NCBI RefSeq assembly: GCF_900104725.1
Contig: NZ_LT629758.1
Span: forward strand, 5,966,501 to 6,030,500
Direction of reading: 5' to 3'
Source: Actinoplanes derwentensis
Lineage (GTDB): Bacteria > Actinomycetota > Actinomycetes > Mycobacteriales > Micromonosporaceae
Length of the DNA stretch: 64,000 bases
The notes under the pieces are model-generated. The model was not told where the DNA came from. It did not search any database and worked only from the letters and a program-made list of their open reading frames with translations. Positions 18,386 through 58,578 of the stretch are shown here, piece after piece. The position numbers and the translations under genes were made by a program. Within the stretch, counting starts at the first letter, position 1. The number at the start of each line of letters is the position of its first letter.

Positions 18386-18410
18386 AACGTTGCGGGACCG
18401 CATCGCGTTC
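18386..18410 (-). promoter_or_regulatory. ECF-type promoter box for the small zinc-finger gene
   Basis: On the minus strand GAAC (18407-18410), 17 bases, then CGTT (18386-18389). The spacing is identical in the other island boxes. The element AGGGTAATCCCCT lies at 18423-18435, just upstream. Confidence 0.62.
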
Positions 18411-18505
18411 GACGAACAAGTGAGGGTAATCCCCTTTCCAAACACTCGGACATGGTCAGCCGGCAAGCGGACCGAATCGGGCGTGAACGCAGCGAGACGG
18501 AGGCG

Positions 18506-20092
18506 TCAGGAGACCCGGATCTCGTACAGCGAGTAGCCGTAACCGTTGGAGCGGGCCGTGCCGACGACCTTCACGTACCGTCCCGGGACCTTTCCGGCCG
18601 AGATGAGCGTGTCACCCTCGACACCCGAGGTCGTGGTGTAGACCGTGGTCCAGGTGGTGCCGTCCACCGAGACCTCCACCCGGTACGTGGTCGCGTGCGA
18701 ACGCTCCCAGGTCAGGTTCACGGTGCTGACGGCCCAGACGTCACCCAGATCCACCAGGAGCCACTGCGGGTCGGAGAACTCGCTGCTCCACCGGGTCGCC
18801 GCGTCACCGTCGACGGCCATCGACGCGGGCCAGCGCCCGTCCTCCTGGCTGGAGGCGCTCGCCGGGCGGCCCAGCGCCAGGTTCGCGCCGGCAGTGTTCG
18901 GCTTGCCGGTGACCACTGTCGTCTTCCCCGGCGTGGTGGTGGCGGCCGCGGCCGGGGTGCTGGGAGTGCGTTTCGGCGTGACCGACCGTGGGGCGGAGGC
19001 CGCCGACGGGACCGGCTGCCCGGCCGCCCGGGTGACACCGCTCGGCGCGACACTGAGCGGCGGCGGCGGAGGTACGGCGTCCGACGGAGGCCCGAGCGTG
19101 ATCATCGTCCGGCCGGGCACCGGCTCCCGCTGCGGCTCGGCTACCTGGTCGGTGCTGCCGCGGTTGTTCGCGATCAGGGCGGTGCCGATCACGACCGCGC
19201 CGGTCAGCACCAGCGGCACCAGCCAAGGCGCGAACCGGGAGGCCCGCGAACGGCTGCCGCCGGGCTCCGGCTCGGCCGGTCCGAGCATGTTCGGCGCGGC
19301 GGCGCTCAGGACCGGGGCATGCTGGACCGGGGCGTGCTGGACCGGGGCGTGCTGGACCGGGGCGTGCTGGACCGGGCGCGGGAGCGGGTGGGGAAGGACC
19401 TCCGTGGGGCGGCTGAAGGGCTCCACGGGCGGGGTGGCGACCACCTGACCAGCAGAAACTCCAGCCGGATGCACCGGCGCCGGTGTCCCGGCGGGGTGCG
19501 GCACCGGTGTGGTCGTCGACTGATCGGCCTTCGCCCCGGTGGATCGCTGCGGGCCGGAAAGTGCCTGGCCGTCGGACGGCGGGGTGACGCGGGCATCGGT
19601 CTCGGGCTTGACCAGCGGATTCGGTCGAGGTGTACCGACCGGCACCGGACGGGGTGTACCCACCGGCGTCGGTTGCGGCGTGCCGGCCTGCGGCGGCAGG
19701 GGCGTGCCGGGCCTGGCGGTGATCGATCCGTTGGTGGGTTCCGGAACGGGCTTGCCGACCGAGGCAGGGGCAGGCTGGGGCGATGCGGCCGAGGCAGAGG
19801 CGGGCTGGGGCGAGGCAAGCGGGCCAGGAGCAGGCTGGGGCGAGGTGGTCGGAGCGGGCCTGGTCAGGGGGGCTGGCGGCGGCAGTTGTTCGGCGGGCTG
19901 TACCTCGTAGGGCGGCAGTCCACTCAGCGCCACCGCCCGTTGCACTGGCGGCCGCTGGCCGGGGCGTGGGACCGGACTCCCGGTGTCACCGCCGCGGGCC
20001 GCGGGCGACCGGGAGGTGCCGCTGTCGTCCGTACCTTCGGCGGGCTTGCGAAGGCCGTCGCTCTCCTGGGGCTCCCGGTCATCCTTGTCCAT
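18506..20092 (-). CDS. proline-rich membrane protein with extracellular F5/8-type (discoidin) domain
   Basis: The 528-residue protein has a cytoplasmic Pro/Ala-rich half. This includes a four-fold PVQHA repeat and several PxPVGTPRP repeats. One membrane helix follows near residues 290-310 (WLVPLVLTGAVVIGTALIA), then a Pro/Thr-rich wall-spanning linker. The C-terminal F5/8-type C domain covers about residues 395-528 (NLALGRPASASSQEDGRWPASMAVDGDAATRWSS; PQWLLVDLGDVW; GYGYSLYEIRVS). Such domains bind carbohydrates, so the protein probably contacts a glycan outside the cell. AAAGG precedes ATG 20092. It resembles the one-helix proteins of the island but has no zinc finger. Confidence 0.85.
   Translation of the reverse strand: MDKDDREPQESDGLRKPAEGTDDSGTSRSPAARGGDTGSPVPRPGQRPPVQRAVALSGLPPYEVQPAEQLPPPAPLTRPAPTTSPQPAPGPLASPQPASASAASPQPAPASVGKPVPEPTNGSITARPGTPLPPQAGTPQPTPVGTPRPVPVGTPRPNPLVKPETDARVTPPSDGQALSGPQRSTGAKADQSTTTPVPHPAGTPAPVHPAGVSAGQVVATPPVEPFSRPTEVLPHPLPRPVQHAPVQHAPVQHAPVQHAPVLSAAAPNMLGPAEPEPGGSRSRASRFAPWLVPLVLTGAVVIGTALIANNRGSTDQVAEPQREPVPGRTMITLGPPSDAVPPPPPLSVAPSGVTRAAGQPVPSAASAPRSVTPKRTPSTPAAAATTTPGKTTVVTGKPNTAGANLALGRPASASSQEDGRWPASMAVDGDAATRWSSEFSDPQWLLVDLGDVWAVSTVNLTWERSHATTYRVEVSVDGTTWTTVYTTTSGVEGDTLISAGKVPGRYVKVVGTARSNGYGYSLYEIRVS
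19309..19376 (-). repeat. 15-base tandem repeat in coding sequence
   Basis: GCTGGACCGGGGCGT is repeated head to tail from 19321 through 19376, with a diverged copy before it. It encodes PVQHA repeats in the proline-rich part of the discoidin protein. It is in frame, so copy changes would alter linker length without breaking the gene. Confidence 0.9.
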
Positions 20093-20146
20093 GGGTCGCG
20101 CCTTTCGTTGTCGGTGACGTGCTGGGACCCGAACCGGCTGGAGGGC

Positions 20147-20229
20147 TGAACGCCGGAGGGCTGAACGCTGGAGGCAGTGCTGAAGGGATCAACGCTGGGG
20201 AAATGAACGCTGGTGTGGATCAACGCTGG
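20147..20229. repeat. five phased copies of a 10-base element T(G/C)AACGC(T/C)GG
   Basis: Copies start at 20147, 20162, 20189, 20204 and 20220, so spacings are 15, 27, 15 and 16 bases. They straddle the 3' end of the gene at 20189 and the leader of the discoidin gene. They may be a decaying minisatellite or a cluster of protein-binding sites. Confidence 0.6.
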
Positions 20230-22387: not shown

Positions 22388-22534
22388 GACAGAGTCATCG
22401 TCTCTGAACCTCTCACTTTCAGCTATCACCCCGCGCCGAGAACCACCGACACATGCGTCCAGGATCAAGGAATTATCGATGAACGGATCTGCCGCCGGCC
22501 AACTGCCCGTCGGTAGCGATCAAACTGTGACCCG

Positions 22535-23062
22535 TTACGACTCCATCGCCTTCATGACGTCGCGGAGAGCACGGAGCGCGTAGTGCGCCCGAGACTTGAC
22601 CGTCCCCTCCGGAACGCCCAGCCGGGCGGCGACGTCGACCGCCTGGGACTCGGTGAAGTACAGCTCGACCAGCACGGCGCGGTGTGCGGGACTGAGCCGG
22701 CGCAGGGCCTCGCGGACCACGTCGGCGGTGAGCACCCGCTCCATCGCGTCACCGGCGGCAGGCACCTGGGCCAGGTCCGGCGGGCTCATCTCCGGCGGGC
22801 GGATCCTACGGGCCCGGCCCACGTCGATGACCAGGTTACGGGCGACCCGAAAGAGCCAGGCACGCACTCCGGCCGGATCCCGGGAGAGCATCGGATGATG
22901 CCGCCAGGCGCGCAGGAGCGTCTCCTGCAACAGATCCTCGGCGGCCGCCCGGTCGCCGAGGGTGAGCCCGGAGAGGTACCGGTACACGGCGGGGCCGTGC
23001 TCGGCCTGCACACTACGCAGCCAGGCGTCGCCGTCGATCGGCACTTGCTCCCGTACGTCCAC
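22535..23062 (-). CDS. ECF sigma factor (RpoE/SigK-like)
   Basis: The 175-residue protein has region 2 (VYRYLSGLTLGDRAAAEDLLQETLLRAWRHH, then WLFRVARNLVIDVGRARR) and region 4 (REALRRLSPAHRAVLVELYFTESQAVDVAARLGVPEGTVKSR). It begins with GTG 23062. It is similar in style to the second island sigma factor at 45226. No anti-sigma gene is adjacent; the zinc-finger protein at 17932 could serve it. The leader contains a perfect 15-base inverted repeat (23152-23166). Confidence 0.93.
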   Translation of the reverse strand: MDVREQVPIDGDAWLRSVQAEHGPAVYRYLSGLTLGDRAAAEDLLQETLLRAWRHHPMLSRDPAGVRAWLFRVARNLVIDVGRARRIRPPEMSPPDLAQVPAAGDAMERVLTADVVREALRRLSPAHRAVLVELYFTESQAVDVAARLGVPEGTVKSRAHYALRALRDVMKAMES

Positions 23063-23151
23063 AGTCTCCTACCGTGCCAGACCGGCGAACGATCCGCCGA
23101 CGGACCTTCGGGCCACGATGCATCGGTGCTGCGCGGGCCAAGCAGAGCGTA

Positions 23152-23166
23152 GAAACACTGTGTTTC
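23152..23166. promoter_or_regulatory. perfect inverted repeat GAAACAC-T-GTGTTTC
   Basis: A 7 + 1 + 7 inverted repeat lies 90 bases upstream of the sigma gene start, between it and the end of the AAA+ gene. It is a candidate operator for control of the sigma factor. Confidence 0.55.
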
Positions 23167-23194
23167 ATAGATGATTCCGACTTCTTGCGGAACT

Positions 23195-25618: not shown

Positions 25619-25694
25619 CCTCGTGATCCCTCCGTGTGACACCGCGGCCGGACGGCCCCGGTCCCTGCCCTCGTCCGCCCGGTGGCGGCCGTGG

Positions 25695-27382: not shown

Positions 27383-27384
27383 GG

Positions 27385-32549: not shown

Positions 32550-32550
32550 C

Positions 32551-40743: not shown

Positions 40744-40745
40744 GC

Positions 40746-41690
40746 TCAATCCGGGGAGCCGGACGACGACACGCGGTCCACGACCGCTGTCACCGCCAGC
40801 GAGCCGTCGGAAGCCGTGACACTGAAGCTGGCCAACTGCACCAACGGCACCGGGCTGGCCCGGGCCACCTCCTGCGGGTGGTCACCGCCGGTCAGCACGG
40901 CCATCTCCCAGCTCTGCCCGGTGACGTCCGTGACGAAGACCTGGTACGGCTCGCCGGGGTGCAGGCCACCGACGGTCGCCCGCAGCGTGACGGGTTCCTG
41001 CTGCCCGGTGACCGTCACAGCGAGAGTCGCGCCGGTGGAACTGTCCTGTGCGTTCGCCACCAGGGTCACCGGATCGGCACCGCGCGAACCGCCGACGACG
41101 GACCGGCCGAGCAGCAGACCCACCGACAACAGCACCACCACGGCGAGCCCGCCGGCGATCAGGGCCACTCGCGGCCGGCGACGACGGCGGCCCGGACCGG
41201 CCTGGCCACCGGGGCCGGACGGGGGGCGGTTCGCGATCGGCCGGGTGGTCCCGGCCGTTGCCCCGGAATTCGGAACAGACGATCCAGACGCGGGCTCACG
41301 GTCGGGCGAAACCAGTTCGGGCGAAACCAGTTCAGGCAGAACCGGCTCGGGTACTACCGTCTCGGGCGAACTCAGCTCAAGCACTACCGACTCGGGTGTG
41401 ACCGGCACCGGCAGGACCGGCTCCGGTCGTACCGCAGCAAGCTCTTGATTTTGATCGGGGGGCCTCGTGCCGGAGACACCGAACTCGGCCACCAGCTCGC
41501 GGCGATCGGTCTCGGTGAGCAGGGCGAGCATCGCCACCGCCTCGCCGACCCGCTCCGCGTCCGCGAGGCACTGCGCGCAAGTGCCCAGATGGGACTCGAT
41601 CGCCGCGCACTCGGCGTCCTGCAGCGCACCCGCCAGGTAGAGCCCGAGCGCACTGCGGAGCTGGGGTTCAGCACACACGTCGTCAGCCAT
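40746..41690 (-). CDS. membrane-anchored zinc-finger (anti-sigma-like) protein, copy 2
   Basis: The 314-residue protein has an N-terminal ZAS-like domain (residues 10-75: ALGLYLAGALQDAECAAIESHLGTCAQC, HxxxCxxC) and a repeated Glu/Pro/Val linker (SPETVVPEPVLPELVSPEL). One membrane helix follows (VALIAGGLAVVVLLSVGLLLG), then an extracellular beta-domain (AVTVTGQQEPVTLRATVGGLHPGEPYQVFVTD) of the RskA/anti-sigma-K C-terminal style. It probably binds a sigma factor inside and senses a signal outside. It is placed between the dead and active mycosins, not beside a sigma gene. Confidence 0.85.
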   Translation of the reverse strand: MADDVCAEPQLRSALGLYLAGALQDAECAAIESHLGTCAQCLADAERVGEAVAMLALLTETDRRELVAEFGVSGTRPPDQNQELAAVRPEPVLPVPVTPESVVLELSSPETVVPEPVLPELVSPELVSPDREPASGSSVPNSGATAGTTRPIANRPPSGPGGQAGPGRRRRRPRVALIAGGLAVVVLLSVGLLLGRSVVGGSRGADPVTLVANAQDSSTGATLAVTVTGQQEPVTLRATVGGLHPGEPYQVFVTDVTGQSWEMAVLTGGDHPQEVARASPVPLVQLASFSVTASDGSLAVTAVVDRVSSSGSPD

Positions 41691-41752: not shown

Positions 41753-43420
41753 TCAGCGAGATCCGACGACGGTGGGCTCGTCTTCCGGCCGCATCGGGCC
41801 GGCCGGCCACTCCGCGTCCAGGTCACCCTCGGCCTCGGCCCCGCGCATGGTGCGCCGCAGACGGAAGACGAGCAGGGCGCTCAGGATCAGACCGACCAGG
41901 ACCGTCACCAGGAACGCGACCCGGACGCCGTCTCCGTCGGTGGACGCCCCGGCGGGATCGTTGTCCTGGGACAGCAGCGCCGTCTCCTCGGGAAGCTCCC
42001 GGGTGACCGCCGCCTCGGGGTTGATCATGCCGTAACCGTATCGGCTGTCCGGCTGAGCGTCGCCCATCCGGTCCGCGGTGATCGCGACACGGTGAACGAT
42101 CTGCGGCGCCTTCAGCTCCGGATGCGAGCCACGGACCAGGGCGACCGCCCCGGCGGCCAGGGCCACCGCGTACTCGGTGCCGCTGCCCACGAACCGCTTC
42201 GTGCCGTTGATGCCGAGGCTGGCGATGTTCACTCCGGGCGCGACGACGTCGACCGACTGCGGGGCGTACTCCTCCGCGGTCTTGCCGTCGACACCGACCC
42301 CACCCACGATGATCACCTCGGCCGGCGGCTCCACCGCGCCGTCCCGCGGACCCGCGGGGGGCGCACCGGCCACCACGACGATGTCCTGGTCGAGGGCGGC
42401 CTGCACGGCCTGAACCACCGCGGGCCGGGTGACGTCCACGTAGGAACCCAGCGCGATGACGGTGGCCCCGGCGGAGACCGCGACCTCGATCGCGGCGGCC
42501 TGGGCGGCCTCGCCGGCGGCGGTGCCGTCGGTGACCACCCGGACCGGCATGACCACCGATTCGGGGGCCACCCCGGTGAAGGTCTCCTTGTTCACCGGCT
42601 GCGCGGCGACCAGACCCGCCATCGCGGTTCCGGTGCCCAGGCAGTCGCTGTCACCCCGGCCGTCGCCGGTAACGATGTTCGCGCCGATCGCCACCCGGCC
42701 GCTGAGCTGGGCGGCGCGACCGTCCACACCCGAGTCGACGACGGCGACCAGCTGGCCGACCCCACGGCTGTGCTCCCAGACCTGGTCGGCGGCGAGTTTG
42801 CGCATCGCCCAGTTGGACGGGGCACTGGCCGCGATCGCCGCGACGCACTTGCCGGAGGGTGGCGCGGCGGGCGGCGGCGAGGACGGCACCGCGCCCGGGT
42901 TGACCGGCGTGCTCGCCTGCGGAACACCCGGGCCCGTGGGCCTCTCGGCCTGGCCGGTCGTGGCTGGCTGCCCGCCGCCGGTCGAACCGCCTCCCGGCGC
43001 CGAGCCGGGAGTCGTCGCACCAGGAGCCGTCGTCGCACCCGTGTTCGTGTCCGGGGCCGCGGCCGGAGCCGGAGCGGTGGTGGGCAGAACGCCGTACCGC
43101 ACGCCGGAACCGACCGCGTCCCACGGGAGCACCAGGTACCAGCCCGCGGTCAGCGAGTTCGGGTTGCTGAGCGCGCCACCGGCGGGCTGGCTCCGGCCGG
43201 AGTTCAGGTTGAAGATGTCCGTCGCCCGCCCGGCACCACCGAGGAGCCGGTCGGCGATGTTACCGAGGTTCTCCTGGCCGGCCGGGTTCACCGAGCCGAC
43301 GGTGTAATAGAGGACGTAGTCCGCGGCTGCGGCCCGCGCCGGCGCGGCGCGCACCGCGCCGGTGAACAGGAGCACGGCGAGGACCGCCGCGACCCTGCTC
43401 ACCGATCGGCGCATGCTCAT
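41753..43420 (-). CDS. mycosin-like pseudoprotease with N-terminal LysM-like module
   Basis: The 555-residue protein has a signal peptide (1-32), a LysM-like module (residues 35-112: YTVGSVNPAGQENLGNIADRLL, ATDIFNLNSGR, LTAGWYLVLP), a Gly/Pro/Thr linker, and a subtilisin-like domain (200-475). A C-terminal membrane helix ends it. The Asp is kept (VVDSGVDG, 229). The His position reads CLGTGTAMAG (Thr263) and the Ser position reads GSGTEYAVA (Glu416); the oxyanion Asn is also absent (AGAPPAGP). It should be proteolytically inactive. ATG 43420 overlaps the upstream stop (ATGA). It may be a structural partner of the active mycosin. Confidence 0.9.
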   Translation of the reverse strand: MSMRRSVSRVAAVLAVLLFTGAVRAAPARAAAADYVLYYTVGSVNPAGQENLGNIADRLLGGAGRATDIFNLNSGRSQPAGGALSNPNSLTAGWYLVLPWDAVGSGVRYGVLPTTAPAPAAAPDTNTGATTAPGATTPGSAPGGGSTGGGQPATTGQAERPTGPGVPQASTPVNPGAVPSSPPPAAPPSGKCVAAIAASAPSNWAMRKLAADQVWEHSRGVGQLVAVVDSGVDGRAAQLSGRVAIGANIVTGDGRGDSDCLGTGTAMAGLVAAQPVNKETFTGVAPESVVMPVRVVTDGTAAGEAAQAAAIEVAVSAGATVIALGSYVDVTRPAVVQAVQAALDQDIVVVAGAPPAGPRDGAVEPPAEVIIVGGVGVDGKTAEEYAPQSVDVVAPGVNIASLGINGTKRFVGSGTEYAVALAAGAVALVRGSHPELKAPQIVHRVAITADRMGDAQPDSRYGYGMINPEAAVTRELPEETALLSQDNDPAGASTDGDGVRVAFLVTVLVGLILSALLVFRLRRTMRGAEAEGDLDAEWPAGPMRPEDEPTVVGSR

Positions 43421-45138
43421 TTGCTCAGTTTCCACTGCTGGTCGACGGCGTAGGTCTGCAGGTCCCATTGGGTCACCGCGGTGCCGTTGCTGCCGCAGCA
43501 GTCGTCACCGATGAGGTCCAGCGCCTTACCCGACTTGCGGTTGATGATGAAGTACGCGCCGTCGCCGGCGGCCTTCAACTTCCACTGCTGATTGTGGTCG
43601 GCGAACGCCGGGTCCAGCATCACCAGCTGGGCGGCGTTGTCGGCGGAGCCGTCCCGGATCCCGAGCGACTTGTTGTTGAAGTCGTTGGTGATGACCACCC
43701 AGCCGCCGTCGGCCGCATTGGCGACGTGCCAGTGCTGGTCCTTCTGCTTCAGGTTGTCCCACAGCTGCATGGTCGTGCCACCGGTCGTGACGGAGTCAGT
43801 GCCGGGCACCTCGAGCACCCGGCCGGTGAGCTGGTTGGTGATCTGCCAGGAGTCGGCGGCGTTCCAGACCGGCGTGGCCGGCTCGGTGGTCTTCGTCGTC
43901 TCGGGTTTCGCCGAGGTCTCCACCGGGCTCGGCGAGGACTTCGACGGGGACGGACTCGGCGAAGTGGACGGCGAGACGCTCGGCGACGGGGAACCCACCG
44001 ACGACGAGACCGACGGGGAGACCGACGGCGACGGCGACGGCACGGTCAGGCGGGTGTCGGCCTGGTAGGTACCGACCAGAGCATCCACCATGTCGGCCAG
44101 CTGCGCGACGGACGCCTCGCGGGGCACACCGCCCTCGGCCCGGACCGCGGTGGTCCCCCACTGGTACGCCGCGAGTGCCAGCGTGTAGGCATCCTCGGTG
44201 TTGCCGTCCGCGTTCTTCAGCTTCATACCGGAGAGCTGGTTCTTCAGGTCGCACATCGCGCTGCCCAGAGCCGGGATCGCCGCCTTCGGGTCCCAGACCG
44301 AGGCGCTGGCCGACGGCCGGTACTCCTGCCACATCTTGTCGGTGAACTGCGCGATGCCCTGACCGCCGCTGCCACCCTTGAGGTTCGGGTTGAAACCGGA
44401 GAGCGCCATCAGCTGCGCGGCGACCCGCTCCGCGGAGATCACGTCGGGGCAGACCTGGCCTGCTTTGACGACCAGGCTCAGGTACTCGTCGGGGATGGCG
44501 GTGCCGGTGGGCGGTGCCACCGAGGCGTTCTCCTCCGGCTCACCGGTGAACTGCGGCTGCTCCGCGTACCAGTTGGCGTAGCCGGCGACGGTGTCGACGT
44601 ACTTCTGGGCGGACTCCGGCACACCGCCGGCCTTCACCACGGTCTCCAGGCCGACCTGCCCGGCGGCCACGGCGGCTTCCCAATGGTCACCGTCGACGTC
44701 GGCCTCGCGGACCTGACCGACCGTCTCGCAGGTGCGGTGCGCGAGAGCGAGGACATTCGCCAGTACGTCGGTGCGCTGCGCCTTCTGCCACGGCGCCCAC
44801 TTCTTCCAGTCCTCCGGATCCAGGTTCGCCAGGCCCTCGCCCTCGCCGGCTTTCGCCGTGGGCTGGAACTCCGAGGCGGCCATCAGCTGAGCGGCCAACC
44901 GGGGACCGGTCACCGACGGGCAGGACGTCGCGCCGACCACGATCGCGGGAAGGACGTCGTCGGGCACCCGATCGCCCTCGATCTTCGTCTCCGCGAACGC
45001 TGGGCCGACCTGCATACCGGCCACGACGACGCAGGCAACGGCGGCCGTGAAAGCCACTCCGGCCTCGACCCGCTGCCGGGTGGTACGCAGCGACTGCCAC
45101 GCCCGCACGACAGCCCCCTTCACCGATCTCAATGCCAC
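43417..45138 (-). CDS. exported protein with two lysozyme-like domains and a C-terminal ricin-type lectin
   Basis: The 573-residue protein has an N-terminal signal/anchor (AGVAFTAAVACVVVAGMQVGPAFA) and two SLT-like domains (about 60-200 and 215-360). A Ser/Pro/Thr wall linker and a ricin-B beta-trefoil (430-573: WQITNQLTGRVLEVPGTDS, QHWHVANAADGGW, QQWKLS) follow. Lysozyme-type transglycosylases have Glu in a QESGFNP-like motif. Domain 2 reads MALSGFNPNL with GGQGIAQF, and domain 1 reads MAASEFQP, so both seem to lack the catalytic Glu. The protein may bind rather than cut peptidoglycan. GGAGAGGG precedes GTG 45138, and an ECF-type box lies 35-59 bases upstream. Confidence 0.83.
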   Translation of the reverse strand: MALRSVKGAVVRAWQSLRTTRQRVEAGVAFTAAVACVVVAGMQVGPAFAETKIEGDRVPDDVLPAIVVGATSCPSVTGPRLAAQLMAASEFQPTAKAGEGEGLANLDPEDWKKWAPWQKAQRTDVLANVLALAHRTCETVGQVREADVDGDHWEAAVAAGQVGLETVVKAGGVPESAQKYVDTVAGYANWYAEQPQFTGEPEENASVAPPTGTAIPDEYLSLVVKAGQVCPDVISAERVAAQLMALSGFNPNLKGGSGGQGIAQFTDKMWQEYRPSASASVWDPKAAIPALGSAMCDLKNQLSGMKLKNADGNTEDAYTLALAAYQWGTTAVRAEGGVPREASVAQLADMVDALVGTYQADTRLTVPSPSPSVSPSVSSSVGSPSPSVSPSTSPSPSPSKSSPSPVETSAKPETTKTTEPATPVWNAADSWQITNQLTGRVLEVPGTDSVTTGGTTMQLWDNLKQKDQHWHVANAADGGWVVITNDFNNKSLGIRDGSADNAAQLVMLDPAFADHNQQWKLKAAGDGAYFIINRKSGKALDLIGDDCCGSNGTAVTQWDLQTYAVDQQWKLSK

Positions 45139-45172
45139 GGTTGGTTTCCCTCTCCAGCGAATGTGCTCTGTG

Positions 45173-45197
45173 AACGGGACCGGGCATGCTCCGGTTC
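45173..45197 (-). promoter_or_regulatory. ECF-type promoter box for the lysozyme/mycosin unit
   Basis: On the minus strand GAAC (45194-45197), 17 bases, CGTT (45173-45176). The -35 context CGTGAACCGG is identical to that at 47658-47682. It should drive 45138 through 39496. Confidence 0.72.
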
Positions 45198-45225
45198 ACG
45201 GATACGCCAAGATTTTCCGGCGGCC

Positions 45226-45819
45226 TCAGACCGTGAAGCCGTGCGCCACCAAGTCCTCGTGCAGAGCCCGCAGCGCGTAGAAGGTGCGTGACTTGACCGT
45301 GCCCTCCGGGACGGCGAGGTTCTGCGCGGCCTCGGCCACCGAATGCTCCTGGAAATAGATCTCGATGAGCGCGCTGCGCAGGCGCTCCGGCAGCCGGGCC
45401 ACCGCGTCGCGCACCTCCCGGGTGTTGATCAGCCGGTCGATGTCGTCAGCGGTGGTGTGGTGATCCTCGATGCGCTCGTCGAGCTGTTCCGTCGGGCGGA
45501 CCTGAGCCACCCGGATGTGGTCGATGGCGATCCGCCGGGCCACGGTGAACAGCCAGCCGCGGCTCCACTCCCCGTCGGCGGTGCGCGCCTCCGGATGGTT
45601 CCACGCCCGGACCAGCGTCTCCTGGAGGATGTCCTCGGCCATCGCGCGGTTGCCCGTCGTCAGGCGCAGAAGGTAGTTCAGCAGGATCGGGCCGTGGGTC
45701 TCGTAGGCGAGCTTCAGCGCCTCGTCATGAGTCGGAAGCAACGGCGAATCGCCGTACAACGTGTTCTCCGGGGCCGGATCCATGGGAGTGATAACGACCG
45801 CATCGGGACCCGAGTTCAT
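45226..45819 (-). CDS. ECF sigma factor of the island
   Basis: From ATG 45819 the protein has 197 residues. Region 2: ILLNYLLRLTTGNRAMAEDILQETLVRAWNHPE and GWLFTVARRIAIDHIRVAQ. Region 4: RDAVARLPERLRSALIEIYFQEHSVAEAAQNLAVPEGTVKSR. It follows the zinc-finger membrane protein at 45923, the usual partner order for a sigma/anti-sigma pair. Starts at 45870 or 45783 are also possible; none has a clear ribosome site. It is the best candidate to read the GAAC-N17-CGTT boxes of the island and would then control its own unit. Confidence 0.92.
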   Translation of the reverse strand: MNSGPDAVVITPMDPAPENTLYGDSPLLPTHDEALKLAYETHGPILLNYLLRLTTGNRAMAEDILQETLVRAWNHPEARTADGEWSRGWLFTVARRIAIDHIRVAQVRPTEQLDERIEDHHTTADDIDRLINTREVRDAVARLPERLRSALIEIYFQEHSVAEAAQNLAVPEGTVKSRTFYALRALHEDLVAHGFTV

Positions 45820-45922: not shown

Positions 45923-46960
45923 TCATGAGGCACCGGCACTCGGATCCGGGCCCGGCGATCCGAGCACCACGTTCGCCGAGACCATCAGACCGCCGTCGAT
46001 CTCCTGAATACTGAAGTACCACAGGTCATCGACCGAAGACGCTATGTCGCCGGTGAACGTCCCGCCGCCGGTGCCGCCGGTGAGCTGTCCGAGCAGCAGG
46101 TCCTCGCCCTCGTCGGTGACGGCGTGGAGCTGGTACGCGACGTCGGGGGCCAGTCCGGTGGCGGAGAGCCGCACACTCACCCGGCCGTCGTCCTCGTAGA
46201 GCACGGCGGACATCTCCACACCACTGACGCCGTCCGAGGTGGACGCCACCGCGACCACCGGGCCTGGAGTCTCGGCCGACAGCCCCGGCATGATCAACAG
46301 TGCCGCGGTCACCACCGCGGCCAGCACGGTGGTCATACCGACGACGGCGCGGGCGCGGGGACGGCGCGAGGCCGACCTGCGGTGCGAGTGCGGGCCCCGG
46401 GAGAGCGGGCCGGTCACGGGCCGCGGCGGCAGGTAACCCTCGCCCAACCGGACACCCCGCCGATCGGCCGCGGGCACCGGGCCGATCCTGGCGACCGGGC
46501 GAAGCTCGCCGACAGCCGGGGAGGGGGATGCGACCGGAAGCGGAGGCGGGAGCGGCGCGGCAGCCGGACGCGAGACGACAACCGGCGGGGGTACGGGTCG
46601 GGGAGCGGCGATCGGCGCGACTCGCGGGGATCCCGGCACACCTCGCGGGGCTCCCTGCACACCTCGCGGGGCTCCCTGCGTGCCTCGCGGGGCTCCTGGT
46701 GCGCCGAAGAGCTGGCCCGGCACCGGGCCGGTGACCGGCACCTCGACGCCGAAGTCGGCGACGAGCGCGCGCACGTCCGCGACGGGGAGCATGCCGAGGA
46801 CCGACACGAGGCGGTCGATCTCCGCACGCTCCACACGGCAGCGTTCGCAGGTCGTCAAGTGCTGGGAAACGGTCCGGTGTTCCACCTCGGAGAGCCGGCC
46901 GAGGACCAGAAAACCGACCAGGGTGCGCATGGTCGAGTCGTCACAGGTGGGCGCGCTCAT
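45923..46960 (-). CDS. membrane-anchored zinc-finger anti-sigma-like protein, copy 3
   Basis: The 345-residue protein has an N-terminal ZAS-like domain (MRTLVGFLVLGRLSEVEHRTVSQHLTTCERC, HxxxCxxC). A Pro/Arg-rich linker with four GAPRG repeats follows, then one membrane helix (about 205-228: AVVGMTTVLAAVVTAALLIMPG) and an outer beta-domain (SAVLYEDDGRVSVRLSATGLAPDVAYQLHAV, ending DDLWYFSIQEIDGG). It lies directly upstream of the ECF gene at 45226 and is its likely anti-sigma factor. Its outer domain resembles that of the 40746 protein, so both may respond to related envelope signals. Confidence 0.86.
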   Translation of the reverse strand: MSAPTCDDSTMRTLVGFLVLGRLSEVEHRTVSQHLTTCERCRVERAEIDRLVSVLGMLPVADVRALVADFGVEVPVTGPVPGQLFGAPGAPRGTQGAPRGVQGAPRGVPGSPRVAPIAAPRPVPPPVVVSRPAAAPLPPPLPVASPSPAVGELRPVARIGPVPAADRRGVRLGEGYLPPRPVTGPLSRGPHSHRRSASRRPRARAVVGMTTVLAAVVTAALLIMPGLSAETPGPVVAVASTSDGVSGVEMSAVLYEDDGRVSVRLSATGLAPDVAYQLHAVTDEGEDLLLGQLTGGTGGGTFTGDIASSVDDLWYFSIQEIDGGLMVSANVVLGSPGPDPSAGAS

Positions 46961-47017: not shown

Positions 47018-47338
47018 TCAGTCCGCCATCGGGGCGTCGGCCCCACCCAGCGGGCCGGAAGCATCGGCCCAGCCCACCCCGGGATAACCGGTCCACGTGA
47101 TCTCCATCGCATCGCTGATCAACCCGACGACACCGTCCCGGCCGAGAAGCCCGTCGGCGGCGATCGTCCACTCGTCGGCCGGGCCCAGGTCGGCCCGCGC
47201 CCCGGCCCACAACCCCCGGGTCGGCTCCAACTCCGCACGCAACCCGGCCAGTCGCCCGGCGACCTCCGCGGCCAGTGCGTCGATGGCTCGCCCGATCACG
47301 GCCAGATCGGCCTCGGCGGCCTGGTCGGCGCCGGTCAT
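47018..47338 (-). CDS. small ESX-like protein, second of a pair
   Basis: The 106-residue protein has an N-terminal helical part (AVIGRAIDALAAEVAGRLAGLRAELE). A Trp-x-Gly turn (GLWAGARADLG) and a second part with Trp residues (ADEWTIAADGLLG, ITWTGYPGVGW) follow. Its start overlaps the stop of the 96-residue gene (ATGA). The paired small helical proteins are reminiscent of WXG100 heterodimers, but similarity is weak. It sits in a unit with the anti-sigma-like and sigma genes and probably shares the promoter at 47658-47682. Confidence 0.65.
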   Translation of the reverse strand: MTGADQAAEADLAVIGRAIDALAAEVAGRLAGLRAELEPTRGLWAGARADLGPADEWTIAADGLLGRDGVVGLISDAMEITWTGYPGVGWADASGPLGGADAPMAD

Positions 47339-47625
47339 CGGCAGTCACCGCCGGCCAGCTCCACGTCGGAACGCCGCGGGGCCTCGGCCGTCTGCTGCAG
47401 GTCACCGGCGATGTCGTGCAGGGCGTCGTCGAGCATCCGGGCGTAGATGTCATAGCCCACCAGGAGATCGGCCAGCCGGGACGGGGAGATCCGCAGGCGT
47501 GCCGGGTCCAGGCCCGCCAGGTGCTCGCGCAGCATGCCGAGACGCTCGCCGATGTCGGCGGCGGCGGCCCGGCAGTTGCCGGCCGCATTGCTCCCCATCG
47601 CTGAATACGGTCTAATCCCGCTCAT
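47335..47625 (-). CDS. small helical ESX-like protein, first of a pair
   Basis: ATG 47625 is fixed by GGAGG 5 bases upstream (47631-47635). The 96-residue helical protein (NCRAAAADIGERLGMLREHLAGLD, LLVGYDIYARMLDDALHDIAGDLQQTAEA) has ESX-like length but no Trp-x-Gly. It is coupled to the 106-residue gene. Together they may form a heterodimer exported by the system, or a cytosolic adaptor. The function is not recognised. Confidence 0.65.
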   Translation of the reverse strand: MSGIRPYSAMGSNAAGNCRAAAADIGERLGMLREHLAGLDPARLRISPSRLADLLVGYDIYARMLDDALHDIAGDLQQTAEAPRRSDVELAGGDCR

Positions 47626-47657: not shown

Positions 47658-47682
47658 AACGGTGGCCGGAACGTGCCGGTTC
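47658..47682 (-). promoter_or_regulatory. ECF-type promoter box of the sigma-factor unit
   Basis: On the minus strand GAAC (47679-47682), 17 bases, CGTT (47658-47661), 33 bases before ATG 47625. It should drive the small pair, the anti-sigma-like gene and the sigma gene, making the sigma factor self-controlled. Confidence 0.72.
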
Positions 47683-47693
47683 ACGATTCCGTC
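47669..47693 (+). promoter_or_regulatory. divergent ECF-type promoter box of the LysM gene
   Basis: On the plus strand GAAC (47669-47672), 17 bases, CGTC (47690-47693), 59 bases before ATG 47753. It interlocks with the minus-strand box at 47658-47682. The last -10 base differs from CGTT. Confidence 0.55.
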
Positions 47694-52716: not shown

Positions 52717-52720
52717 GCCC

Positions 52721-55324
52721 TCAGCCGACCTGGTACTCACCGACCAGGACGGCCGAGGCCAGCTCGACCCGGGAGCGGTACCCGGTCCGGTTGAACAGCC
52801 GGGAGAGCCGGCCTTCGACGCTCTTCTCGCTGCTCTGGGTGGCGGCGGCCAGCTGCCGGTTGGACAGGCCCTCGGCGACCAGGGCGGCCAGTAGCTGCTC
52901 CCCTTCGGCGAGGGTTTCGGAGCGGCCGGGAACCGCGAGCCCGTGCTCGCGCATGGCCTGCCGGACGCGGGACCGGTGCAGGACCGCCCCGAGGTCGCCG
53001 AGCAGGTCGTATGCCTCGCCGAGCAGCGCGGGTGTGTGCCCGGTCCAGCGGACCACCCGTTCCAGGGCGCGAGCCAGTTCGTAGGGCGCACCGAACTCAC
53101 GGGCCAGCGACACCACCTCACCGGCGAGTTCCGGGTTCCGGTCGGCGACCAGCCGGGCCGAGGCCGCCCGCAGCCGGGCCGCCACGGTGTCCAGTGCGGC
53201 GGCGGTCCCGGCCGCGGCGTCGGCGGCAGCCGCGGCCTCGGCCGGGTCGCCGCGTTCCATGGCCAGTTCGGTGGCGGTCAGCCAGAGTTCGTCGACACCG
53301 GCGACCAGACCGCGGCGGGCGGTTTCGGCGAGCGCCGCACCGGTGACCCGGGCGGCTGCCGCCGGATCGCCGAGGATCTGATCGATTTCGGCCGCGACCG
53401 GTTCCAACAGGTGCGGCAGGGGTGCACCGTCGGCACGGGCGGTCTCCAGCATCGCTCTGGCCCGGGACGGCCAGCCCCGCGCAAGCAGCACCTCCGCGGC
53501 CATCCGGTGCACGGTGGACTGGGCCACCGGGTAGGCCACGGCGAGGTCGGCCGCGACGCCGAACAGCGCGGCTTCCAGTGCCCGGTCCCACCGGCCGGCC
53601 CGCCAGTCCCGTAGCGCCCGCGCGGGCACGGGCAGGTCGGCGTCGGTCAGCCCGGTTCCGGCCAGCGCGCGGTGCGCCCCCACCGGGTCGCCGCTGACCG
53701 TGGCGGTCAGGAAGGCGGTCACCGCAGCTGAGGCGGCCCGGCGGCCCGAACCCGCGTCGCTGTCGCCGGTGCCGGGGTGTGGCCGGGGCGTCGCGGACGT
53801 GCGGCCGGTGACGGCCCGGATCTGGGTGCCGAGCGCCTCCGCCGTGCTGGTGATCCGGGCGGTCTCGCGTATCAGCCGCGCCGCTTCGGCCCAGCGGTCC
53901 AGCACGGTGAGTGCGGCGGCCCGGGTGACCGGTCCCCCGCACTCCCCCGAGGCGGTGGCGCGGACGGCGTCCATGTCGCGTTCGCCGCGGGCACCGATCA
54001 GGGCCAGAAGTGCGGCCTCCTCGCGAGCGGCCGGTGACAGGTCGTTCTCGGACAGAAGACCCAGCAGCGGGGTACGGGCGGAGCCGTACCGACCGGCGCG
54101 CAGTTCGGCACCGGCCCGGTTCAGCACCGCCTCGGCCCGGTCCGCGGGGTCGCCGCTGAGGTCGGCCGCGCCACTCCACCAGCGGGCCGCGTCCGCGGGC
54201 GACCGGAGCGCGGCAGCGGTGGCGTGTTCCCGGAGCAGGGTGATCGACCGTGCGGGATCGACCAGTCCACCGGCGGTGGCGACCGCGTCGGGCAGGAACC
54301 CGGGGTCACCGGAGTGCGCGTCGCCGGACCAGAGGGCCTGCACCGCGACCTGGGCCAGCCGGCGCCGCTCGTACGGTCCGAGACCGGCGCCGAGCGCGAC
54401 GGCCACCGCCGGCACCGGGATCCGCCAGCCGCGCCGGTCCACCCGGGCGACGCCCTCGTCCCGCAACGTGCCCAAGTGCGCGCCCACCTCGTCGGAGGTC
54501 ATGCCGAGCGCGCGGCCGATCAGAGCGGGTACCGCCGGGCCGAGCGGTTCCAGCACGGCCAGCGACCGGGCGACCGCGAAGGTGCCCGGGTCAAGACGGT
54601 GAACCGGCCGGAGCAGGTCGTGGCCCACCGGTATCCGGGGCGGCACGGTCACGTCGGCCAGGTAGGCGCGCCTGTCCACGACCCGCAGGGTGTCCGACCC
54701 GCGGTAGCCCTCGACGGCCGCCAGCAACGGGCCGGGCCGGCCACGGCTGAGCCGGCGCAGTTCGGTGCGCAACGAGTCGTGCGGCACGGCCTGCAGCAGC
54801 CGGAACACGAGCGCGTCGGCTTCGGCGGGCGGCAGTGGGCGCAGCCGGTCCATCTTGGCCAGCCCGGCCGCGCGCAGCCCGTCGAAACCGGTCAGCAGGA
54901 CGGGGTTGACGGCGGCGCCGGTACGCCACGCGGCGACACATCGCACCGGCGTACGGGCCAGTTGGTGCAACGCGGCCAGCAGGGCGGTCGCGGATTCCGG
55001 GTCGGCCCACTGCGCGTCGTCGACGACGATCACCAGGCCCGGATGGCGGCGCAGCGCGCGGGTCAGCGCGGCGGCCGGTGGCTCGACGAAACCACCGCGC
55101 CCGGCACCCAACCGGGTGGGGATCGGGGCCAGTCCGGCGAGCACCCGCCCGGCCAGGTACCACGGTTCGTCCCGGTCCTCCGGCGCGAGCCGCACCTCGA
55201 CGACCGGCCGCCCGGCCGCGGCCGCCGCCTCGCGCAGACCGCGCAGCGCATGGCTGCGGCCGATGCCCGCGGGGCCGGTGAGCAGGGTCAGCGCGGGTTC
55301 GGCCGGATCGACGATGGTCGTCAT
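52721..55324 (-). CDS. large ATPase-type LuxR regulator with altered Walker A
   Basis: The 867-residue protein has an N-terminal STAND/AAA-like domain (LLTGPAGIGRSHALRG, Walker B LVIVVDDAQWAD), a long TPR-like helical middle, and a C-terminal LuxR helix-turn-helix (LVAEGLSNRQLAAATQSSEKSVEGRLSRLFNRTG). The Walker A reads GIGRS, so the phosphate-binding Lys is Arg. ATG 55324 is used; GTG 55360 would overlap the upstream gene by 14 bases and is also possible. It is the third gene in a unit with 58507 and 58007 and probably pairs with its paralogue. Confidence 0.88.
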   Translation of the reverse strand: MTTIVDPAEPALTLLTGPAGIGRSHALRGLREAAAAAGRPVVEVRLAPEDRDEPWYLAGRVLAGLAPIPTRLGAGRGGFVEPPAAALTRALRRHPGLVIVVDDAQWADPESATALLAALHQLARTPVRCVAAWRTGAAVNPVLLTGFDGLRAAGLAKMDRLRPLPPAEADALVFRLLQAVPHDSLRTELRRLSRGRPGPLLAAVEGYRGSDTLRVVDRRAYLADVTVPPRIPVGHDLLRPVHRLDPGTFAVARSLAVLEPLGPAVPALIGRALGMTSDEVGAHLGTLRDEGVARVDRRGWRIPVPAVAVALGAGLGPYERRRLAQVAVQALWSGDAHSGDPGFLPDAVATAGGLVDPARSITLLREHATAAALRSPADAARWWSGAADLSGDPADRAEAVLNRAGAELRAGRYGSARTPLLGLLSENDLSPAAREEAALLALIGARGERDMDAVRATASGECGGPVTRAAALTVLDRWAEAARLIRETARITSTAEALGTQIRAVTGRTSATPRPHPGTGDSDAGSGRRAASAAVTAFLTATVSGDPVGAHRALAGTGLTDADLPVPARALRDWRAGRWDRALEAALFGVAADLAVAYPVAQSTVHRMAAEVLLARGWPSRARAMLETARADGAPLPHLLEPVAAEIDQILGDPAAAARVTGAALAETARRGLVAGVDELWLTATELAMERGDPAEAAAAADAAAGTAAALDTVAARLRAASARLVADRNPELAGEVVSLAREFGAPYELARALERVVRWTGHTPALLGEAYDLLGDLGAVLHRSRVRQAMREHGLAVPGRSETLAEGEQLLAALVAEGLSNRQLAAATQSSEKSVEGRLSRLFNRTGYRSRVELASAVLVGEYQVG

Positions 55325-55346
55325 CGGGAAAGCACCGATCTGCTGG

Positions 55347-58007
55347 TCAGGACGCGACACCGAGGATGTCCGTGGTGAGGCTGACCGCGGCCAGTTCGAC
55401 CCGGGACCGGCAGCCGGTACGGGCGAAGAGCCGGGTCAGGTAGTTCTCGATCGTCTTCTCGCTCATCCGTACCTGCACAGCGATCTGCCGGTTGGTACGT
55501 CCCCGCCGGATCAGCTCGATGGTCTGCATCTCGACGGCGCTGAACGCGGCCTGCGGAGACCGGGACCGCGGTCGCCGTACGCCACGCTCCCGCATCGTGG
55601 TGGTGACCGCGGACCGCAGCACCGGCGAGCCGATCTCCTCGGCCTGTGCCTGCGCTTCGAGCAGCCACGGACGCGGATCCGGGGCGACCCGGCCGAGTGC
55701 CAGCGTGGCGAGAGTCAGGTCGGGCCGGTGACCGCGGGCCCGGATCAGGCCGGTCGCCCGAGTCGCCGCGGTGGTGTCCCCAGTGGTCAGCGCCCGGATC
55801 AGCAGCGTGGTCCCGGCACTGAGACGGCGGTGCGGCCCGCTGGCGTCCGCGTCCACGATCCCGGCCAGATGGGTGGACTCCCCGGCCAGATCGAACCGCG
55901 CCGCGAGACCGGCGGCTCGGGTCAGCAACTGTTCGACGCCGATCCGGCTGCCGTGCGCCAACTGCCGGGCGTGTGCCACCCGTGCCGCGCGCAGTCGCCC
56001 GGCCGCCTCCAGCGCGGTCGCCGGTTCGGTGGCCGGGCCGTTCGCCGCCCACCACCGCAGTGCCGCGTAGGGCGCCTCGTCGGGAACCCCGGCGATCCGG
56101 GACGCGGCCTCCTCCGCGCGGCCCTGCAGGGCGAGCGCTTCGGCGGCCCAGAGCCGGGTGAACCGGCGGACTGCCGGGGCTTGGGCACCGGCCAGGTCCA
56201 CCTCGCGGGCGGCGGAGAGCATGCCGGGCAGGTCACCGTGGGCGTGACAGGCGTGCAGGCGGTGGTACGCGGCGAGCAGTCCGTCAGCGGGAGTGTCGTA
56301 CCGCGCCTCGCCGAGGATCAGTTGCAGGACCGTGGCCAGGTCACCCGTACCGCCGGCGGTCAGTAGTTCGTCGTTCTTCTCGTCCGCAGGGATGAGACCG
56401 GCACCGATCGATCGGGCCGCGAGGGCGACCTCCGCAGCGCTGATCAGCGTCGCCGGGCGGGCGTCCGGGGCCGCGACCGGACCGGCTGGGCGGCCGTCGA
56501 GCCACCGGTCGGCGAGGTAGGTCACGGCCGGGTCGGTCGCCTCCGGGGCGGGTGTTCCGGTGTGGACGGCCGCGAGGGTGGCGGCGGCGGCCAGGTCACC
56601 GGTGCGCCCGGCTGGTCCGGCGGCCCGCACGACGTCGGAGAGCCGGGCGAACTGGCCGGTGCGGACCAGCAGCCGCAGCAGCCGGGCGAGAATGTCGTCG
56701 GCGACCTGACCGCCACCGGCGTGCCAGAGCGCGGCGCGCAACCAGTCGGCGGCCCGGCCCGGTTCCCGGTCGGTGGCCTGGGCCGCGGTGGCGGCGAGAC
56801 TCACCGCGGTACGCCGGTCGGTCGGCATGGCCACCCCGGCCGAGGTGACGTGGTCGGCCAGCGCGGCCCGGTCGGCGGGGGCCCCGGCACCGGCCCGGCG
56901 GAACATCGCCGCCGCGTACGCGCGGTGCAGCCGGGCCACCGCGGCCGGGCCCGCGTCCGCGACGAGGCGGGCCGCCAGGGCGGGACTCTGCGGCCGGATG
57001 CTGCCCCGCCGGTCGGCCACCAGCACACCGTCGGTGACCAGGGCGTCGACGATCCAGCCGTAATCGTCGAGGCGGCCGAGCGTGGCATGCGCGAAGAGCG
57101 GCAGGTCGTCCAGGCCGAACCGGGTGACGGCGGCCATGGTGGCCAGCCGGACCGCGTCGGGACCGCGCCCGAGCAGGGCGGTGACGAGCCGGTGCCCGGC
57201 GGGCAATCCGATCGGGTCCCGCGGATCCAGCAGGCACAGGTGCCCGCCGACAACCTTCAGGCGGCCGGTACGAAGGAGTTCGGCCGTCGTCTCCAGCACG
57301 GTCGCCGGGTTTCCGGCCAGCGGGCCGAGCGCGGTGGCCAGCGCGGGCAGAACCGCCTCGTCCAACGGCACCCCGTGCCGGCGGACCAGCAGGTCCCGAA
57401 CCGCGTCCGCGGGCAGTGGGGGCAGGTCGACGACCGTGTCGGCGAGGGCGGCGAGCCGGCCCCGGGCGGTACGGGCGGTGGCGACCACCAGGCAGCCGGC
57501 GCGAACCGCGGCGGCCAGGGCGGCGGTCAGACCGGGGGCGTCGTCGGCGTCGTCGGCGAGCAGGACGGTCGGCACCCGGCGGCCGATCAGCCCGAACGCG
57601 GCCGAGGTCTCCTGTGACAGTTCGGCGAGGCGGCCGGGCCGGACCGGTCCGGTGTCCGCGCAGAGCGCGCCGATCGTGCTCAGCGGACCGGCCAGCAGCG
57701 GGTCGCCGAGGCGCTCGTACTGCTCGCGGACGACGTGCAGCACTGCGGCGAAACCCGCCACCGCGCCGGTCTCCTCCGGATGCGACACGCGCAGGATCGC
57801 CACGCCCGCGGGCTGCCAGGCGTCGGCGAGCGCTTCCAGAAGAGCCGTCCGGCCACTGCCGGGCACGCCGGTGACCAGCACGAACCGGCCGCCGTCGGCC
57901 GCTTCCCGGCGGGCGGTGCCGAGGATGCCGATCTGTTCGTCGCGGCCCGCTACGGTGCGCCGCCGCGGTGTGTTCCCCTTGACGCCGGGCGGCCGCCGGG
58001 CGGTCAC
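55347..58007 (-). CDS. large ATPase-type LuxR regulator, paralogue with altered Walker A
   Basis: The 886-residue protein has the same layout as its neighbour. The N-terminal ATPase has GVPGSGRTALLEAL (Walker Lys again replaced by Arg) and VLLADDADDAPG. A TPR-like middle leads to a C-terminal LuxR domain (LIRRGRTNRQIAVQVRMSEKTIENYLTRLFARTG). GTG 58007 overlaps the stop of the 167-residue gene (GTGA). Retention of Arg in both paralogues points to a shared, perhaps non-hydrolytic, nucleotide mode. Their target could be the ecc operon, which lacks the ECF box; this is inference. Confidence 0.9.
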   Translation of the reverse strand: MTARRPPGVKGNTPRRRTVAGRDEQIGILGTARREAADGGRFVLVTGVPGSGRTALLEALADAWQPAGVAILRVSHPEETGAVAGFAAVLHVVREQYERLGDPLLAGPLSTIGALCADTGPVRPGRLAELSQETSAAFGLIGRRVPTVLLADDADDAPGLTAALAAAVRAGCLVVATARTARGRLAALADTVVDLPPLPADAVRDLLVRRHGVPLDEAVLPALATALGPLAGNPATVLETTAELLRTGRLKVVGGHLCLLDPRDPIGLPAGHRLVTALLGRGPDAVRLATMAAVTRFGLDDLPLFAHATLGRLDDYGWIVDALVTDGVLVADRRGSIRPQSPALAARLVADAGPAAVARLHRAYAAAMFRRAGAGAPADRAALADHVTSAGVAMPTDRRTAVSLAATAAQATDREPGRAADWLRAALWHAGGGQVADDILARLLRLLVRTGQFARLSDVVRAAGPAGRTGDLAAAATLAAVHTGTPAPEATDPAVTYLADRWLDGRPAGPVAAPDARPATLISAAEVALAARSIGAGLIPADEKNDELLTAGGTGDLATVLQLILGEARYDTPADGLLAAYHRLHACHAHGDLPGMLSAAREVDLAGAQAPAVRRFTRLWAAEALALQGRAEEAASRIAGVPDEAPYAALRWWAANGPATEPATALEAAGRLRAARVAHARQLAHGSRIGVEQLLTRAAGLAARFDLAGESTHLAGIVDADASGPHRRLSAGTTLLIRALTTGDTTAATRATGLIRARGHRPDLTLATLALGRVAPDPRPWLLEAQAQAEEIGSPVLRSAVTTTMRERGVRRPRSRSPQAAFSAVEMQTIELIRRGRTNRQIAVQVRMSEKTIENYLTRLFARTGCRSRVELAAVSLTTDILGVAS

Positions 58008-58507
58008 GCCAGTTCGCGGGTGGAGCCCCCGCGTGCTCCGGCCGCGACCGCGTCCTCGCGGATCACCAGGAAGATCTCACCGGCGACGGCCAAGGAACGC
58101 AGGTAGGAGTCCGTGTCGCCGGTCTCCAGCCAGACGATCCGGCCGCCCGCCTCACGGGGACGCGGTCCGCCGCTCTCGTCGGAGAAATGCGCGTCGATCA
58201 GCAGCAACGGCACCGGTGCGGACCACAGATCCGGCACCTGCCGGCTCGCGGACGTGTCGAGCAGCACGTCGAGCTCGGCGTCGTCGCAGTCCTCGGAGCC
58301 GTACGCGGTCAGCACCCGCTGCTGCATCCGCTCCAGGTCACGTTCCGCGTGCGCGATCCGGGCCGCGTGCCGGTTCGCCGGTGCGACGGCCAGGTAGCCG
58401 GGGATCAGTTCGGCCAGCAGTTGCTCCGGATCATCGGACGTCACATGCTGGCGACCGCCTGGGTGAACCATCCGGTAGCGACCCTCGTCCTGCACAGAAC
58501 CTGCCAC
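58004..58507 (-). CDS. acidic protein of unknown function before the LuxR pair
   Basis: GTG 58507 is chosen because GGAGG lies 6 bases upstream (58514-58518); the in-frame GTG 58522 lacks a site. The 167-residue protein has no signal peptide or membrane helix. It is helical in the first half (ERDLERMQQRVLTAYGSEDCDDAELDVLLD), then has strands (PVPLLLIDAHFSDESGG, GRIVWLETGDTDSYLRSLAVAGEIFLVIRE). It is not a family I recognise. It is coupled to the LuxR genes, so it may modulate them; being next to the toxin gene, it could also be considered as an immunity protein. Confidence 0.7.
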   Translation of the reverse strand: MAGSVQDEGRYRMVHPGGRQHVTSDDPEQLLAELIPGYLAVAPANRHAARIAHAERDLERMQQRVLTAYGSEDCDDAELDVLLDTSASRQVPDLWSAPVPLLLIDAHFSDESGGPRPREAGGRIVWLETGDTDSYLRSLAVAGEIFLVIREDAVAAGARGGSTRELA

Positions 58508-58553
58508 CTCACACCTCCGCACGGGCCGGGCGTCTCGCCGGCCGTGCCTTGCA

Positions 58554-58578
58554 AACGGACGCCGGACCGGTTCCGTTC
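58554..58578 (-). promoter_or_regulatory. ECF-type promoter box of the LuxR unit
   Basis: On the minus strand GAAC (58575-58578), 17 bases, CGTT (58554-58557), 47 bases before GTG 58507. The context CGTGAAC...CCGGC..CCGTT matches the boxes at 45173 and 47658. Confidence 0.68.

Follow-up and report, generated by a model that had tools for sequence, protein, structure and literature searches.

A conserved promoter box points to a small SigL-like sigma regulon among the accessory genes of a type VII secretion island in Actinoplanes derwentensis

A type VII secretion island of Actinoplanes derwentensis was analysed in a 64,000-nucleotide stretch of DNA (the window; contig NZ_LT629758.1, positions 5,966,501-6,030,500), which represents 0.6% of a single-contig genome of 10.65 Mb. 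Its SigA protein is very probably an autoregulated, SigL-like extracytoplasmic function (ECF) sigma factor, whose small regulon would form an accessory layer of the island. Sequence comparison strongly supports that four predicted promoters, all on the minus strand, have in common a conserved SigA-type box that reads CGTGAAC-N17-CGTT-NNCA or nearly so (Table 1). A sequence-only reading of the window had proposed a private ECF regulon on the basis of five GAAC-N17-CGTY strings. Conservation across genera, a matrix built from relatives only and pattern counts in the genome strongly support a small regulon of this kind, but its membership needs revision: the sites at 45173, 47658 and 58554 stay, the one at 47669 was dropped, the one at 18386 was moved to a second box, and a site at 45793 was added.

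Results

Conservation of the box in relatives

SigA orthologs were searched in 150 genomes of the family, A. derwentensis included. Besides the latter, they were found in 10 genomes, with 72-85% identity: five Catenuloplanes, three genomes of another genus (G121, G079 and G034), G036 and G130 (Actinoplanes). A SigA fragment at a contig end of G012 (69% over 129 residues) was excluded from the counts, and a search of contigs for related loci yielded a single true relative (C. japonicus, L064), the 16 other hits being distant sigma factors. DNA of 39-60 kb around SigA was fetched from the ten relatives, and the window proteins were mapped on it. An additional 40-60 kb came from four genomes with SigA paralogs of 53-62% identity, giving, with the A. 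derwentensis island, a set of 15. Genes mapped in the relatives' islands are homologs of window proteins only, and putative operon extents were deduced from gene direction and spacing.

The box was co-inherited with its units. It was present in the SLT, smallA and LuxR leaders in 10/10 of the genomes that bear the unit (A. derwentensis included; for smallA, the 10 genomes with a close smallA), and its spacing was always 17. Conservation ahead of orthologous units, which the sequence-only reading had proposed to check, was therefore observed. Also as pointed out there, a wider CGTGAAC/CCGTT context is common to 45173, 47658 and 58554. In the SLT leader, CGTGAAC and CGTTC were invariant in 10/10 genomes, while 0/17 spacer columns were.

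The site at 45793, TGAAC-N17-CGTT, was exact in 7 of 11 genomes, had a spacing of 18 and/or CGTC in three, and was lost in G036. Its CGTT ends 10 bases ahead of ATG 45783, and a sigA transcript from this box is predicted to be leaderless. A sigA start further upstream, over the box, was given by a crude gene caller and rejected for ATG 45783, because the open frame has only 190-196 codons in G121, G079 and G034 and because the alignment begins at this ATG.

Ranking of the sites with a matrix

A matrix was built from 34 sites of nine relatives, without A. derwentensis; G036, every zf2 site, and the sigA sites that had drifted in G121 and G079 were also kept out of training. Its best matches in the window were 58554, 47658, 45173 and 45793 (35.4, 34.2, 32.0 and 21.5), followed by matches at 16.9 and 14.6. 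The best score in 12 simulated windows was 15.5, and the 18386 site scored 5.2. With matrices that omitted the tested genome or its close clade, SLT leaders scored 21-35 and smallA leaders 25-38, each in 10/10 genomes, and the LuxR unit scored 21-35 in 9/10. The remaining LuxR unit, in G130, scored -7, its extrapolated start lying past the box, which itself scored 28.9. For the sigA leader the scores were 22-26 in six genomes; in the other four they ranged from -12 to 4. Over the 15 islands, scanned at positions with GAA in the -35 element, 56 matches scored at least 16.5, and none of them was within a mapped gene.

The ecc core was said by the sequence-only reading to lack the box. This holds for the testable leaders: those of EccC, EccB and EccD (7 genomes each) and of the WXG100 and EccA-like genes (5 each) scored at most 5. 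The fetched region of three Catenuloplanes genomes showed no core, and these were outside the test.

Assignment of the box to SigA or SigB

No domain beyond sigma regions 2 and 4 was found in SigA, and its best solved relative is M. tuberculosis SigL (E 3e-29). The window encodes a second SigL-like sigma factor, SigB. We infer that SigA is the likely reader of the SigA-type box, because SigA occurs without SigB in five genomes, four of which have kept the boxes. SigB orthologs of 74-83% identity were found in five Catenuloplanes genomes, and G001 has a 58% relative; at E 1e-50 there were no others among the 150 genomes, and SigB was missing from G130, G121, G079, G034 and G036, all SigA-bearing, the first four of which keep SigA boxes. 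That SigB (22535) would read the box instead of SigA, or interchangeably with it, is thus very unlikely. The two proteins are both SigL-like (E 3e-29 and 1e-30), their window copies both keep His54 and lack Asp60, and they lie in the same island; however, SigB is not found in the four genomes just named, and the genomes with a close SigB carry another box, CGTCGAAC-N17-CGTT, ahead of zf3.

This second box was present in 6/6 genomes with SigB of at least 74% identity, including two where the SigB unit is at a separate locus. In the A. derwentensis genome, 18386 is its sole match with up to one mismatch. Two different boxes are therefore interleaved in one island, and the five strings are not the single box that had been claimed: 18386 has a different -35 (GTCGAAC) and 47669(+) is unconserved. 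Judging by co-occurrence, SigB probably reads the 18386 box.

Just upstream of the zf3 box (window 18414-18450, minus strand), about 26 bases, GTCCGAGTG..TGGAAAGGGGATTACC, are near-unchanged in A. derwentensis and three Catenuloplanes; this stretch is perhaps a regulator site. A third ECF sigma gene is located at the left window end (922-1443, plus strand), with no SigA-type box nearby among the top matrix hits.

Promoter geometry

The SigL -10 element is given as T-12 G-11 N C/A A G-7, with CG before it; His54 sets T-12, Asp60 sets G-11, and the -11 and -7 bases are flipped into pockets (PMC6372665). His54 is kept in 11/11 SigA proteins, all of which have Asp at the position after Asp60, and by position count the A of NNCA, conserved at 2.0 bits, corresponds to -7, one of the two flipped bases. 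The residue match, weak as a whole, supports T-12 and would explain a T at -11 only loosely. Assuming a spacer of 5-6 bases, transcript starts are expected 10-11 bases past CGTT, an offset that lands on ATG 45783 when counted from the 45793 box. The sequence-only reading had placed starts about 7 bases past CGTT; this was rejected in favour of the SigL numbering, which puts the sigA start on its ATG.

Symmetry of the sequence raises another explanation, in which the box is the operator of a dimeric regulator, for example the LuxR proteins of the island, that recognises GTGAAC...GTTCAC. The SLT box (45171-45200) is indeed a near-perfect inverted repeat, whose opposite strand has a matrix score of 16.9, fifth in the window. 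However, the LuxR and sigA boxes are less symmetrical but retain TGAAC, CGTT and, for the most part, the -7 A; placement relative to ribosome sites fits a promoter; and G001 has a box (33.7) ahead of a lysozyme gene with no LuxR1/LuxR2 homolog in the fetched 60 kb. An operator is highly improbable. Antisense transcription from the lysozyme box into the 3' end of sigA is possible. The G001 box (joined-island coordinates 56337-56362, L110) adjoins a SigB-like sigma gene (57%), and suggests that the box is common to a wider family of secretion-linked sigma factors.

Frequency of the motif in the window and in genomes

All five strings of the sequence-only reading are present, with a spacing of 17 in every one, 47669 being on the plus strand and the other four on the minus strand. 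GAAC-N17-CGTT occurred 6 times in the window, and no shuffle out of 100 reached 6 (mean 1.20). For TGAAC-N17-CGTT there were 4 matches (shuffle mean 0.18, largest 2). GAAC-N17-CGTY had 15 matches (shuffle mean 5.77, largest 14), from which the five had been chosen. Among the ten unlisted matches, 45793-45817 is a true member of the regulon, and 30980 sits within a called gene. These 15 matches, ten of them unlisted, could suggest that the five were chance picks out of a motif recurrent in high-GC DNA, but the conservation and matrix tests oppose this scarcely credible view, which stands only for 47669. As the LysM promoter of the sequence-only reading, 47669..47693 (+) is not supported: the full motif at spacing 17 was found in 2/10 genomes, GGAAC was missing in 5/10, and the SigA-matrix score was 10.7.

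Genome-wide counts were made by pattern. In A. derwentensis, TGAAC-N17-CGTT had 25 copies, versus 7 for the reversed control, and 4 of the 25 were in the window. The strict box CGTGAAC-N17-CGTT-NNCA had three exact copies in 10.65 Mb, all within the island. With one mismatch it had 9 places (6 within called genes and 3 outside; scores -0.8 to 19.1), and with up to two mismatches 293, versus 89 for the reversed control. By crude gene calls, pattern hits outside the island lay partly in genes and partly between them. The looser CGTGAAC-N17-CGTT had five copies, three of them in the island. In the ten relatives it occurred 66 times, versus 2 for the reversed control; 35 of these fell in the fetched islands, which make up about 0.57 of 90 Mb, and the other 31 outside them, a few being close to SigA paralogs. 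"Private" is thus a fitting word for the strict box in its own genome (3/3); for the looser form the share in the island is 3/5, and 35/66 in the relatives.

Three Catenuloplanes genomes have conserved extra boxes in the fetched region; judging from the sequences, these lie ahead of a protein whose start is kinase-like and of one that is F5/8-C-like. The former is very long, and its SigA-type box is at G084:14020, G067:13323 and G098:17417 (joined-island coordinates); it is likely an extra regulon member in Catenuloplanes.

Table 1. Predicted promoters and genes of the island (positions in the window)
Feature	Position	Strand	Remarks
SigA-type promoter, lysozyme/pseudo-mycosin/zf2/mycosin unit	45173..45200	-	predicted start ~45163; score 32.0
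SigA-type promoter of sigA itself	45793..45818	-	score 21.5, fourth in window; missed by the sequence-only reading
SigA-type promoter, small pair/anti-sigma/sigma operon	47658..47685	-	predicted start ~47648; score 34.2
SigA-type promoter, g58004/LuxR pair unit	58554..58581	-	predicted start ~58544; score 35.4
SigA, ECF sigma factor, 185 aa	45226..45783	-	sigma regions 2 and 4
ASigA, anti-sigma-like, ZAS motif HLTTCERC	45923..46960	-	zf-HC2 21.2 bits, just under the cut-off of 22.2
smallB, second gene of the small pair, W-x-G motif	47018..47338	-	LW(A/S)G in most homologs
smallA, helical-hairpin small protein	47335..47625	-	start ATG 47625 with GGAGG, start region aligned
SLT lysozyme-like protein with ricin-type lectin repeats	43417..45138	-	strong match to ricin lectin; weak match to SLT (E 0.0015, 18.5 bits, cut-off 21.3)
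Pseudo-mycosin, subtilase fold	41753..43468	-	catalytic His to Thr/Ser and Ser to Gln/Glu in 11/11 genomes
zf2, second membrane ZAS anti-sigma-like protein, HLGTCAQC	40746..41690	-	zf-HC2 30.0 bits
Mycosin, intact catalytic triad	39496..40749	-	in the lysozyme unit
g58004 and two large ATPase proteins, both with C-terminal LuxR-type domain	52721..58522	-	GerE 37.5 bits; second 20.7, cut-off 23.5
SigB, second SigL-like ECF sigma	22535..23062	-	candidate reader of the 18386 box; SigL match E 1e-30
Second box CGTCGAAC-N17-CGTTnAA before the soluble ZAS zinc-finger gene	18386..18413	-	kept with SigB
zf3, soluble zinc-finger protein with ZAS motif, downstream of the 18386 box	17932..18306	-	zf-HC2 29.3 bits

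Observations that weigh against the SigA regulon

A number of observations speak against the SigA reading. With the leave-out matrices, the box internal to the sigA operon was good in only 6/10 genomes, and it is drifted or lost in G130, G121, G079, G034 and G036. G036 keeps SigA without the lysozyme or LuxR unit, its small-pair homologs are 32-33% identical and about 22 kb off, and its best box near SigA, ahead of ASigA, scores only 16.7. SigA and SigB are about equally close to SigL, so that homology alone cannot assign the box. Asp60 is replaced in 10/11 SigA proteins (present in G079), and the boxes have T at -11. The full genome was scanned by pattern; of its 25 TGAAC-N17-CGTT copies, the highest-scoring one beyond the island (18.4) is a leader site at 2,023,399, 32 bases ahead of a called start, and a one-mismatch site within a called gene scores 19.1 (L126). 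The leader of a core-region gene, g27385, scores 10 in A. derwentensis. Finally, ASigA is absent beside sigA in three genomes (G121, G079 and G034), where zf2 remains.

Anti-sigma-like proteins and target genes

In these last three genomes the gap between smallB and sigA is only 78-105 bases. Conversely, the place of zf2 is a 182-base gap in G130, and ASigA is kept there. The seven other genomes have both genes, so that each of the 11 keeps at least one. Such complementary losses fit an action of both ASigA and zf2 on SigA, and do not prove it. ASigA, zf2 and zf3 all carry H-x3-C-x2-C. One hydrophobic stretch was detected in ASigA by hydropathy (residues 206-224), and zf2 also has one; a membrane segment was looked for in zf3, whose start was picked from an alignment of first residues, and not found. 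ASigA and zf2 share 32% identity over 72 residues. ASigA weakly matches the structure chain 3hug_B (E 0.21), which we take to be RslA, the partner of SigL. As in autoregulated ECF systems with a class I ZAS anti-sigma, the operon of sigA holds an HxxxCxxC anti-sigma gene (ASigA), and its own promoter bears the box (47658).

The small pair was examined for WXG100 membership. No Pfam match was found for smallA or smallB at E 0.1, and the NCBIfam search gave none for smallB and one unrelated match (0.045) for smallA. The smallA model is a confident hairpin without WXG (helices 14-37 and 48-81, mean pLDDT 80.5), and that of smallB is weak (pLDDT 65.7) despite its W-x-G. A homolog search with smallB returned 8 proteins, its own included, none with Pfam domains; one smallA homolog is annotated at source as ESX-1 secretion-associated. 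The gene g50380, a neighbour of the LysM gene, has homologs of at least 57% identity in exactly the 11 SigA genomes, and of 44-46% in others.

Discussion

The following mechanism may be proposed. At rest, membrane anti-sigmas (ASigA and/or its paralog zf2) would hold SigA via their ZAS domain. A signal from the envelope, or one linked to secretion, would remove them in a manner analogous to Rip1-type proteolysis, and the SigA thus set free would direct RNA polymerase to CGTGAAC-N17-CGTT-NNCA or close variants ahead of four units, namely its own operon, made up of the small pair, ASigA and sigA; sigA alone as a leaderless transcript; the lysozyme/pseudo-mycosin/zf2/mycosin unit; and the g58004/LuxR unit. 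Since zf2 is inside a target unit, its production would close a negative loop. The ecc core would be expressed by other means, and SigB probably owns the separate box at zf3.

A bolder version, which we consider rather unlikely, makes this regulon a secretion-state feedback circuit. The small pair would report type VII traffic and zf2, whose gene lies between those of the pseudo-mycosin and the mycosin, would be cleared as mycosin-driven assembly proceeds, so that building of the machine releases the sigma factor that makes lysozyme and mycosins. The small pair still adjoins sigA in the three genomes without a neighbouring anti-sigma. Flagella have export-coupled sigma control, and the circuit, if true, would be its type VII counterpart.

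Several parts of the proposed mechanism have precedents. Among the features recognised early as typical of ECF sigma factors were AAC/CGT boxes, anti-sigma partners and autoregulation (PMC8103513), and the anti-sigmas of SigD, SigK, SigL and SigM are targets of Rip1 (PMC10449499). The system resembles M. tuberculosis SigL-RslA in its closest solved sigma factor, in the CG-T context of the -10 and in autoregulation (PMC6372665, PMC10449499); it differs by the T instead of G at -11, by the replacement of Asp60 in 10/11 SigA proteins and by its target genes. In M. tuberculosis, SigM activates ESX-4 genes, including eccC4 (PMC10117145, PMC10449499). Here too an ECF sigma factor with an anti-sigma would activate type VII genes, but the tested core ecc leaders lack the box: the EccC leader in 7/10 genomes, and the WXG100 and EccA-like leaders in 5, gave at most 5 bits, unlike a SigM-type regulon. 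S. aureus has a cell-wall hydrolase, EssH, that is dedicated to its type VIIb system (PMC13059805), whereas the lysozyme described here is tied to a system of another type, by position and a shared sigma box. In B. subtilis, the type VII system is activated by DegU (PMC3701619).

ECF control of type VII genes is therefore already known from SigM/ESX-4, and the mechanism is of a known kind. What appears to be new, as far as sequences tell, is a control restricted to accessory genes, the pair of anti-sigma-like genes that are lost in a complementary way, and the interleaving of two boxes. In the titles and abstract beginnings that made up the literature searched, ECF control of a type VII system was named for no non-mycobacterial actinobacterium, and type VII regulation outside mycobacteria was little described.

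An accessory regulon that spares the core would separate helper functions from the channel. It would also group the pseudo-mycosin, the small pair and g58004 into one functional unit. The boxes may finally serve as a handle on these systems, since forced expression of SigA should switch on the accessory set in soil bacteria.

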